Shown: in pieces, positions 1 to 38,536 of the stretch
Layout of the letters: each line of letters starts with the position of its first letter
Position numbering within the stretch: the first letter of the stretch is position 1
NCBI RefSeq assembly: GCF_045679555.1
Contig: NC_092122.1
Span: 13,443,043-13,507,042 of the forward strand
From: Salvelinus alpinus
Lineage: Eukaryota; Chordata; Actinopteri; Salmoniformes; Salmonidae
DNA: 64,000 nucleotides
Reading direction: 5' to 3'
Notes under the pieces: model-generated
Seen by the model: the letters and a program-made list of their open reading frames with translations, nothing else
What the model was told of the DNA's origin: nothing
Databases searched by the model: none
Translations under genes and position numbers: made by a program

Positions 1-1465
1 TATCACATGAACACACTTTAGACATGACAGTGTATAGAATTGCAAGAAAATTAGCTTTAAAACAGCAACATTTTCTCTCTGCCAACAAGAGGGGTGTGAA
101 CAGTTTGTGTCGTGAACAGTGCTTGTGCCCATAGAAATAGACGTGGCGCCCGCAAGGGGGACGTGGGATGTTGCCCAATGCTGGAAGCGGGGCCTGAGTG
201 AAAAGGTTTGGGAACCTACAGCCTACATGATGTTAGTACAACAGCAAGAATGATGTCCCATTATGTGATCACTGTGACAGCTGTCACCTATGACCTTTCA
301 CACATTTCAAAAGCTTCCATCCTGACCCACGTGTGCCAGGAGAAGGGTGTCTCACCGCACCCTTCCTAGAAAAACTGGAGAAGTCTGTGTTTCTGGTATA
401 TCTCTCTCCTAGTTTAATTGTAGCAAGGGATCTATATGACTGATGGGTTTTGCATTTAGGAAAGTTCTGATCTCATGATTATCTTGTCACTCCCTACAGT
501 AATTTCCTCAGTGACTACCACAGAAATTAAACGGACATGTTAATTAATGTTCAGGCTTTAGGCTATATGAATCCCCCTCAACGAGATAGCCCAGTACCGG
601 AGCATGTAAGCTTTCTCTCGCTTGTGCATACGGAAGTATTATTTTTGGCTTTCAGTACAGATATGCCGTTTCAGTATAAGGAAGTTCTAATAATCTAATA
701 TCCTATTTTTTGAAATATTAACCCCTCTTCAATCCTGATGCAGGTGGTAAAGTCAAACCAAAGAGTAAATACACCGGACATGAACATCACCAAAAATACA
801 TTTAGCATGGCGGACTCAGGTCGAGGAGCCAGCTACACAGTGCCCTGTGACGACTACATCCATGTGGTGGAGTTCAGCCCCTTTGACAGTGGCTCAGCTG
901 CGTCCCTCTTGGCCTATGGAGGAAGCCAGTATGTGGTGGTAGGCACCTGCCGCTTCCAGGTGAGTGGTTGCCTGCCAGATTCCTCTTCCTCATGTCCTCT
1001 TTTCTAGCCTCCCTTCTCAAAATGCATCAGAGAAGATCCTCCCAAGGTTCCTCTCTGAGGAGGCATGGATAGGGGACACAAGGAAATGAGCCAGTGTTTT
1101 GGTTCCATGTGTGATATAAACCACTGCTGTATGTGTGACGTGAACCACTGTTTGAGCAGGAGGAGGACATGGAGGTAGAGGGGGTTGAATTCAACACACT
1201 GCGTGTTTTCCATCATGTGTTACGTGTGGATTGCCTCACATGGAGTCTCGGCTGGACAAGCTGCCCCAACTCATCAGGTAGCCTACCTTAAACCTTTTAG
1301 TTCTTACAGCTGTCTTCTGTCTTTACATCAGGGTGTCTGGTCCTGGAGTGCTGCTGGTTGTTTCAGGCTTTCCTTCCAGCCCTGCAGTAAGTAACACCTG
1401 ATTCAGCTCATCATGGTGCAGACTGACGACATGGTTAGTTAGTTATTTGGACCAGCCACCGCTGT

Positions 1466-2381
1466 GGGTTGAAGCTGCGCTACTGTTTTTTTTTCTTAAT
1501 CCCCTATGTAAAATGTATTTATAAAGTCCTTTTTATATCAGCAGATGTCACAAAGGTCTTATACAGAAACCCAGCCTAAAACCCCAAAGAGCGAGCAAGC
1601 AAGCAGGAGAGGGCGAGAGGGATACTTAAGATCACACAGGACTCCAATAAGACAGGAGAAAAACATCAGATAGGACAGACCCACCCTAGCCCCCCGGCAG
1701 ATAGACAATTGCAGCATAGATATTGGGGACTGAGACGGAGGGGTCGGGAGACACTGTGGCCCTGTCCCACGATACCCCCAGACAGGGCAACCCACTTTGC
1801 CAAAGCACAGCCTCCACACCACCAGATGGATATCAACAGACCACCAACTTACTACCCTGAGACAAGGCAGGGTATAGCCCGCGAAGATCTCCCCCACCAC
1901 ACGAGCCCGAGGGGGCGCAAGACCAGACAGGAAGATAACATCAGTGACTCAACCCACTCAAGTCGAGTATAGCGAAAAGAGCCTGGCAAGACGTGATGCA
2001 CGCCTCCTACTAACGACATGGGAGAGCACTAGCAAGCCACTTATTCAGTCCCCGTAATAGGGTCAGTGGAGAGAATCCCAGTGGAGAGAGGGGAGCCGGC
2101 CAGGCAGAGACAGCAAGGGTGGTTCATCACTCCAATGCGTTGCTGTTCACCTTCGCACCCCTGGTTCCAGACTACACTCAATCATAGGACCTACTGAAGA
2201 GATGAGTATTCAGTAAAGACTGAAAGGTTGAGACCGTTTCTGCATCTCTCATATGGATCGGCAGACCATTCTATAACAATGGAGCTCCATAGGAGAAAGC
2301 TCTGCCTCCAGCTGTTTGCTTAGAAGTTCTAGGAACATTGAGGCCTGTGTCTTGTGAACGTCGGGTACGTGTAGGTATGTA
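1466..2381. repeat. Dispersed salmonid-type repeat in nup37 intron 2
   Basis: Non-coding sequence with features I associate with a common salmonid interspersed family (AAACCCAGCCTAAAACCCC, then CTCTGCCTCCAGCTGTTTGC, then TACGTGTAGGTATGTACGG). It appears truncated at the right. Family name not assigned. Confidence 0.5.
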
Positions 2382-37300: not shown

Positions 37301-38536
37301 ATGTACAGTGGATATATCACTGGCCTGGTGGGGGTTATGAATCTGAGTGGAGTGATTGACATGGCTATGCTCTCGAAAAGTGAACCTTCTGTAGCGTGGT
37401 GACCCTTGCCATTACCTCAACTACACAACTATTTCTCTCTCTTTATGCCCTCTCACCAAACTGCAAACGCATGTCGCCCACTCCCTAATGACTGAGCCTC
37501 CACAATCTGACCCACAAACCTGATAGATCAAACAGTTGAACAGATATGCATTATATCAATAGGATTGTGTTAATTTATTCCATTGCATTTACTCCAAAGT
37601 ATCACTCACAATGAAAAATCATGTTTGGTGCATGTGTTTGTGTGTGGGCTGTGGTTATAGAACCCAGGTTATTTTGCATATTCTAAAGGACTTACCTCTC
37701 AAAGCTTTCACACCTTTAACCTTTCCTCTCTGACCTTTGTAGTAATGACCCCTGAAACCATCTCATCAAAATCTCTACTCAGCACAAATACCTCGACATC
37801 CCCAATTCCTTGAACTTCGCTGTTTATTGGGATTCTATCCCTTTAGAATTTCTACAGTCCATTATTGTGATGAATTAACAAACACTAAACGTTTTATCAT
37901 TACTTCTCAAGCAAAAGCTGATGTTAAACTGTGCACCCCTTTTCTAGATCAGATTAAAAAGTTTTAAAAAACATATTTATTACCGCAACCTGCATGGATT
38001 CATAGTCACTGACCTTTAACATTATTCACAATTACCATATGTTTACAACAGTCTAGTCTGTGTTGCCATTCTGCTGACTAGAATATTCCAGTCACAGTGG
38101 ACAACATACAGCTGGACAATGAACAACGTTCTAATAGCCGTTTCACGAAATGACACTGACTTTTTACAATAGCACGTTTTACACGTCTGTCCAATGCCAA
38201 GTATGCCTGTTCCCTTCCCTATCTCGTGACATGGAATTTACTGCACAATTAGAATGATATGGCTGTATTAAATAAATAGAATCATAAAACCATCAATTAT
38301 CACTATCTAGTATTATAAGCCAATAAGTTTATAAATGTATATTACTCATTCAACATTATAACATAAATTGTCATCACGATTATATTATTAGTGATAAACA
38401 ACTTCATAAATGTATATTATTCATTAAACATTTAATATTATTGTTCACACTAGATTGTATGTTTAAAATGGCTTACCTCTTTGCCATTGTCAGGTGTGGG
38501 ATAGTCCCCGTTAATTTTTTTGTATGCTGCGTCCAT
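25327..38536 (-). CDS. pah: phenylalanine 4-hydroxylase, 13 exons, intact
   Basis: Cytosolic, BH4- and iron-dependent conversion of phenylalanine to tyrosine. Exons 5' to 3' (minus): 38536-38477, 37176-37060, 30999-30816, 29568-29480, 28893-28826, 28389-28193, 28099-27964, 27686-27617, 27322-27266, 27157-27062, 26199-26066, 25919-25804, 25370-25327. They total 1368 nt (455 residues); exon 2 onward have GT/AG borders and consistent phases. Exons 2-3 give the regulatory ACT domain ([26 protein letters not shown]). Exons 4-11 give the catalytic domain, with [12 protein letters not shown] (two iron-binding His) and [12 protein letters not shown] (iron-binding Glu), plus [17 protein letters not shown]. 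Exons 12-13 give the tetramerisation tail ending [10 protein letters not shown]. The start [12 protein letters not shown] gives a 20-codon exon 1, as in mammalian PAH; an upstream in-frame ATG at 38641 is less likely. Same orientation as th2, with 1.4 kb between the pah stop and the th2 ATG. Intron 2 is about 6 kb and repeat-rich. Confidence 0.95.
25534..25675 (+). mobile_element. tRNA-derived SINE (HpaI/SmaI-like)
   Basis: A-box-like TAGCTCAGTTGGTAGAGC and B-box-like GGGTTTGATTCCCAGGA form a tRNA-like head, followed by the salmonid SINE tail (GTAAGCCGCTTTGGATAAA). In the 1.4-kb interval between pah and th2, just past the pah exon-13 region, within pah intron 12. Confidence 0.75.
29285..29395. 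repeat. Fragment of a teleost dispersed repeat
   Basis: AATCAAATTCAATTGTAATCGTCACATG and following sequence recall a widespread teleost repeat, next to pah exon 4. Assignment is from memory only; a search would decide it. Confidence 0.3.
32160..32500. repeat. Degenerate SINE-like repeat in pah intron 2
   Basis: An AT-rich edge is followed by GCCCTGCTCAAGGGCACGTT and AACCAGCGACCC, a pattern found in old fish SINE families. Diverged; no ORF. Confidence 0.45.
33508..34803. mobile_element. 1.3-kb non-autonomous TIR element in pah intron 2
   Basis: The left end TAGTGGAGAGTGGGGTAAG and the right end CCCCACTCTCCCCTA are inverted. Related GGTAAGTTGAG and CAACTTACCCC motifs recur inside. No transposase ORF is seen. 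Confidence 0.6.
33707..33797. repeat. 22-bp tandem repeat, four copies
   Basis: Units of TTGAGAATAGGGACAGGGTG plus two bases lie inside the TIR element at 33508-34803. Confidence 0.9.
36231..36395 (+). mobile_element. tRNA-derived SINE in pah intron 2
   Basis: The head has TGTAGCTCATTGGTAGAG and GGGTTCGATTCCCACAG (A and B boxes); the tail is CTCTGGATAAGAGTGTCTGC. The same family as the copy at 25534. Confidence 0.8.
36655..36860. repeat. Poly-T run and degenerate CAGCTATTTCAGCT tandem
   Basis: A T-rich tract is followed by repeated TTTCAGCTTTTACATA / CAGCTATTTCAGC units with variable spacing. It has no ORF and lies upstream of pah exon 2 by position. Confidence 0.75.

Follow-up and report, generated by a model that had tools for sequence, protein, structure and literature searches.

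Decay of nup37 and th2 beside an intact pah on one of two collinear salmonid segments, with open copies of all three genes on the other

In Atlantic salmon, 55% of the gene pairs left by the salmonid genome duplication are retained, and for 56% of 9,162 singletons a pseudogenised homeologue fragment lies at the expected position (PMC8127823). The part of that study drawn on here finds very little evidence for fractionation and gives pseudogenisation as the predominant mechanism (Lien et al. 2016, PMC8127823). A comparable outcome has been described for a gene of monoamine synthesis: salmonid tph2 is single-copy after the duplication, and pseudogenisation of the other copy has been suggested from absence (PMC8354878). 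TH2 has been described in bony vertebrates and is lost in placental mammals (PMC6585609), or in therians (PMC11222543); the latter source assigns PAH, TH2, and IGF1 to a single paralogy group, separate from the one that holds TH1, INS, and IGF2.

The window analyzed here is a stretch of 64,000 nucleotides (G000:C37:13443043-13507042 of a 2.37-Gb assembly) carrying disrupted nup37, disrupted th2, and intact pah (Table 1). A search of the same assembly found a second collinear pah-th2-nup37 block on contig G000:C11, at ~32.13 to 32.17 Mb. We put at about 95% the probability that this segment exists in two homeologous copies and that, on the copy in the window, nup37 and th2 decayed through redundancy while pah stayed constrained on both. 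The lesions, the intact second block, the collinearity and divergence of the two blocks, and a one-sided burden of amino acid change together support reading the window as the pseudogenised homeologous copy. As in the Ss4R pseudogenised homeologues of salmon, a remnant sits at the homeologous position and an intact partner lies elsewhere, with no difference in kind from the cases in the text consulted (PMC8127823); nup37 and th2 are ordinary pseudogenised homeologues and offer a worked example with two adjoining genes. The likeness to mammals is that a th2 gene of the pah neighborhood was lost; unlike in mammals, where TH2 is gone from the lineage, an intact th2 persists on C11 (PMC6585609 and PMC11222543, in the parts used). 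The fate of th2 also parallels that of salmonid tph2, except that here the broken copy is directly visible (PMC8354878, likewise in part). Among the matches listed in our literature search, many of them on T-helper immunology, there was no report on the nup37-th2 pair in salmonids, and in one query nup37 was absent from the 15 listed of 23,914 matches.

Gene identities were assigned by protein matches. With the nup37 exon pieces as the query, human Nup37 (E = 4.6e-153) and Xenopus Nup37 (E = 4.7e-143) were the best PDB matches. For th2, the top PDB match was tyrosine hydroxylase (E = 6.6e-175), and the scores of human TH (585 bits), TPH1 (436 bits), and PAH (424 bits) indicate a gene of the tyrosine hydroxylase type rather than PAH or TPH. 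Pfam returned Biopterin_H and the TH-type ACT domain (TH_ACT), with TOH_N at 19.2 bits, below its cutoff of 21.1. The gene adjoins pah in both blocks, unlike th1, and because of this place beside pah we named it th2. For pah, phenylalanine hydroxylase chains were the top PDB matches (E = 4.8e-228) and Biopterin_H was again found. The window copy of pah has no internal stop, a length divisible by three, and canonical splice ends at 24 of 24 positions, which bears out the preliminary description of a gene that keeps every frame.

Table 1. Positions of genes, lesions, and other features in the window, and of the three genes on C11 (contig coordinates, marked C11)
Feature	Position	Strand	Details
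nup37 pseudogene	807..11611	+	9 coding exons, splice sites; PDB match of exon pieces
nup37 exons	807-959, 1160-1277, 3837-3909, 4181-4275, 8615-8705, 9205-9386, 9584-9634, 11252-11336, 11498-11611	+	
nup37 exon 2, 7-bp deletion	1160..1277, junction ~1242/1243	+	within short direct repeat; 118 nt vs 125 nt in C11
nup37 exon 5, nonsense TAG	8619..8621	+	Trp in C11, human, Xenopus
nup37 exon 8, 9-bp in-frame deletion	11252..11336, junction ~11286/11287	+	85 nt vs 94 nt in C11
th2 pseudogene	16433..23959	-	12 coding exons; PDB tyrosine hydroxylase; Pfam Biopterin_H and TH_ACT
th2 exons, first six	23735-23959, 23419-23596, 23184-23272, 22956-23023, 22743-22792, 22459-22602	-	
th2 exons, last six	21998-22126, 21744-21813, 21565-21621, 21252-21347, 20968-21101, 16433-16592	-	
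th2 exon 5 acceptor, AG to AA	22792..22796	-	next AG one base downstream; frameshift if used
th2 exon 6, 2-bp deletion	22459..22602, ~22504/22505	-	144 nt vs 146 nt in C11
th2 exon 7, 7-bp tandem duplication then 14-bp deletion	22009..22036	-	deletion between short direct repeats
th2 exon 9, nonsense TGA	21574..21576	-	Arg in C11
pah, intact	25327..38536	-	13 coding exons, 455 aa; PDB phenylalanine hydroxylase
Tc1-like element	17280-20430		within the final intron of th2; transposase reading frame at 17569-18447; Sleeping Beauty HTH match under its cutoff
tRNA-Ala-like SINE	25533-25666		3' end of UnaL2 type; in the intron after pah exon 12
Repetitive open frame, 753 aa	39196-41457	-	upstream of pah; no Pfam match
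Large tandem-repeat array	53230-54875		
LTR-type element	54876-57677		two 408-bp direct terminal repeats, 4 differing sites; flanking 5-bp repeat GTCGT
Large tandem-repeat array	60384-61475		31-bp units (self-alignment offsets)
Open frame, 137 aa	63521-63934		no Pfam match
C11 pah, intact	32134552-32149346		455 aa
C11 th2, intact	32150733-32161076		470 aa
C11 nup37, intact	32165931-32174380		325 aa

Next, we consider the lesions. The two nup37 lesions of the preliminary description, the exon 2 deletion and the exon 5 stop codon, were both recovered, and to these we add the in-frame deletion in exon 8, whose three residues are also present in the human and Xenopus proteins. For th2, disruption is real, and the count of disabling lesions is five rather than the four first proposed. 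As spliced, th2 exon 5 is one base shorter than its C11 counterpart in the alignment; at first we scored this as loss of a single base and counted no splice lesion, a reading rejected because the C11 sequence, set side by side, shows a substitution in the acceptor. Exon 7 measures 129 nt (136 nt in C11), and the aligner reports a net change of 7 bases only, the two successive events being read from the side-by-side sequences. A 3-bp in-frame difference between the copies in th2 exon 1 was not polarized. Both broken genes are unprocessed, retaining introns and splice sites across their 9 and 12 exons with one acceptor displaced, and the earlier remark that almost all splice sites persist agrees with canonical dinucleotides at 38 of 38 ends used, one of which is that displaced th2 exon 5 acceptor. 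Translated from the start codon, the conceptual products end after 100 aa (nup37) and 210 aa (th2). When exons were skipped in all combinations keeping the first and last exons, the frame stayed open to the native stop in 6 of 128 combinations for nup37, 46 of 1,024 for th2, and 164 of 2,048 for pah. The longest such forms reach 194 aa for nup37 and 387 aa for th2, the latter lacking exons 5, 7, and 9 and translating a portion of exon 6 out of frame.

The search for a second intact block, which the preliminary description had put forward as a check, succeeded on C11. Counterparts were found there for all 34 exons of nup37, th2, and pah, and the three genes contain no internal stops and no noncanonical splice ends (0 of 62). 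The lesion pattern in the window is therefore not chance or noise, the C11 copies being open throughout. Across the two blocks, pah is open twice and th2 and nup37 are open once each; the single intact nup37 is the one within the C11 block examined.

Comparison of the copies shows which one changed. Between C37 and C11, dS was 0.072 for nup37, 0.085 for th2, and 0.051 for pah, and the corresponding dN/dS values were 0.266, 0.302, and 0.075, that of th2 being somewhat inflated by misalignment at the exon 7 lesions. Amino acid changes were polarized with human, rat, and Xenopus proteins as distant outgroups and with lesion sites masked, covering 318 of 325 residues of nup37 and 449 of 470 of th2. 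Of 29 changes scored in the two genes, 19 could be polarized, and all 19 fell on the window copy (10 in nup37 and 9 in th2) against none on C11 (binomial P = 3.8e-6); the 10 unplaced changes comprise 3 in nup37 and 7 in th2. In pah, the window copy had no changes and the C11 copy had one, with three unpolarized. These data place the loss of constraint in nup37 and th2 on the window copy. Among 214 scorable family-conserved columns, 40 were changed in th2 and 20 in pah, a contrast that may simply reflect the paralogy between th2 and the reference TH.

These observations fit the following course of events. A whole-genome duplication, most likely that of salmonids (Ss4R), would have left two nup37-th2-pah segments, between which recombination then ceased. 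With intact partners on C11, purifying selection on the window nup37 and th2 would have been lost, so that both could gather small indels, stop codons, and amino acid changes, while pah would have remained constrained on both copies. We infer Ss4R as the duplication and redundancy as the cause, and expect no functional protein from the broken copies. The preliminary description had spoken of fractionation after the salmonid duplication; the duplicate segment, the intact partner, and a compatible divergence agree with it, but pseudogenisation is the better term, because the salmon study, in the part used, has very little evidence of fractionation (PMC8127823). The locus is a clean, well-preserved case of ordinary duplicate loss.

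To place the decay in time, we used a lesion clock calibrated on the C37/C11 alignment, which gave 0.035 as the neutral distance per copy and an indel rate of 0.155 per substitution. Under full neutrality since divergence, nup37 and th2 together would be expected to carry ~3.1 stops, 13.0 indels, and 2.7 splice changes; we observed 2, 5, and 1, respectively, with the unpolarized 3-bp th2 difference excluded. The observed/expected ratio of 0.42 (95% range, 0.18 to 0.84) suggests that the two genes have been unconstrained for ~0.4 (0.2 to 0.8) of the period since divergence from C11. A calculation by hand from 21 to 31 nonsynonymous changes over ~1,812 sites (the 19 polarized changes plus 2 stops, without or with the 10 unplaced changes) gave 0.33 to 0.49 of the branch. 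The part of the Atlantic salmon study used here places the duplication ~80 to 100 million years ago, with most duplicates diploid before ~60 million years ago (PMC8127823). If divergence began 60 to 80 million years ago, nup37 and th2 would have died, very roughly and within wide limits, ~25 to 35 million years ago. A first dating (joint d, ~0.015 to 0.022) was superseded: it assumed a 1-bp deletion in th2 exon 5 and a per-copy distance of 0.065, derived from the ~87% similarity given in the same part of that study (PMC8127823) and since replaced by the measured 0.035.

Gene-by-gene estimates from the lesion clock overlap (on the earlier neutral scale, with th2 exon 5 as a frameshift), as they would if one event, such as loss of a shared regulatory landscape, had silenced the region and taken nup37 and th2 jointly while sparing pah. 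We consider this unlikely. The clocks are very wide; among these three genes, pah, the other neighbor of th2, is intact; and with 45% of pairs reduced, about 1 in 10 adjacent pairs would be lost on the same copy by chance (our own arithmetic, independence assumed). Given the 55% retention in salmon, and hence 45% reduction, in the portion of PMC8127823 used, loss of two neighbors on one copy is unsurprising. Of the linked loss of two unrelated genes proposed earlier, the decay of both on one copy therefore stands, but chance suffices and no common cause is needed. We similarly doubt the broader scenario in which a single regional regulatory change took nup37 and th2 as a linked run of loss and left the hypothalamic monoamine system on a single th2 ever since.

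The extent and divergence of the two blocks bear on whether the pair could instead come from recent duplication of a segment or from an allelic haplotig. The collinear chain, drawn from the window and the flanks of both contigs, comprises 42 aligned blocks and 70,907 columns over nearly 100 kb; block 42 (433 columns, 63.7%) is probably spurious, yet is kept in the sums. Noncoding substitution divergence was 4,474 of 64,357 sites (p = 0.0695), and the introns of nup37, th2, and pah gave 0.0596, 0.0599, and 0.0604. In upstream slices, taken by position with homology unchecked, 60 of 943 sites differed for th2, 77 of 773 for nup37, and 222 of 906 for pah, the last value probably reflecting a misaligned slice. 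The sequence divergence is compatible with copies from the salmonid genome duplication. A substitution divergence of 6 to 7% is not large for old duplicates, which would suit a recent duplication. Nevertheless, the copies sit on different contigs, 75.6 and 18.9 Mb long, their divergence looks far above allelic, collinearity extends beyond both window ends (by ~28 kb ahead of its start and ~4 kb after its end), and identities of 73.5 to 95.6% in 41 of 42 blocks overlap the ~87% to over 95% of salmon homeologues (PMC8127823, in part), so that we regard either origin as very improbable. That the lesions are errors of sequencing or assembly in functional genes is barely credible, since, although a single assembly underlies them, they take the form not of homopolymer slips but of stop codons, one altered splice site, one tandem duplication, and deletions associated with short repeats, and errors would not pick two of three genes for amino acid changes that run 19:0 in nup37 and th2 and not in pah.

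Returning to the pseudogenised homeologous copy as our reading, we examined the number of TH2 genes. The genome search yielded 62 exon matches to biopterin hydroxylases. From partial exons of eight fetched loci, with no TPH reference included, we assigned these to a pah-th2 pair on each of C11 and C37, the C37 th2 being the broken one, and to one th1-like locus on C9; four further loci, on C5, C6, C9, and C33, we tentatively take to be tph by a motif. At the sensitivity of this exon search, we found one intact th2 in the assembly. The decay of th2 had been expected to bear on how many TH2 copies the species uses, and it does to the extent that one duplicate is lost; since the intact th2 stays on C11, TH2 itself is not. 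To measure th2 in this fish, the C11 copy is the one to assay; no full-length product is expected from the window copy. The th1-like locus (G000:C9:62266974-62293256) was found once, with no second th1-like cluster seen in the genome search, so that th1, too, may be present here as one copy.

The window also contains several repeats. The LTR-type element encloses a repetitive internal open frame (55295-56935, minus strand; 546 aa) with no Pfam match and looks like a recent nonautonomous insertion. Parts of the 753-aa frame upstream of pah are ~83 to 91% identical to the interior of this element, and the frame seems to represent another, altered member of its family. By eye, an insert, possibly a Penelope-like element and carrying a GIY-YIG match below the cutoff at 19409-19732, interrupts the Tc1-like element in the last intron of th2. 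The 137-aa open frame near the window end may be an exon of an unrelated downstream gene. Together with the duplicated block, the Tc1-type transposase and the remnants of tRNA-derived SINEs point to a salmonid. The SINE within pah resembles salmonid HpaI SINEs.
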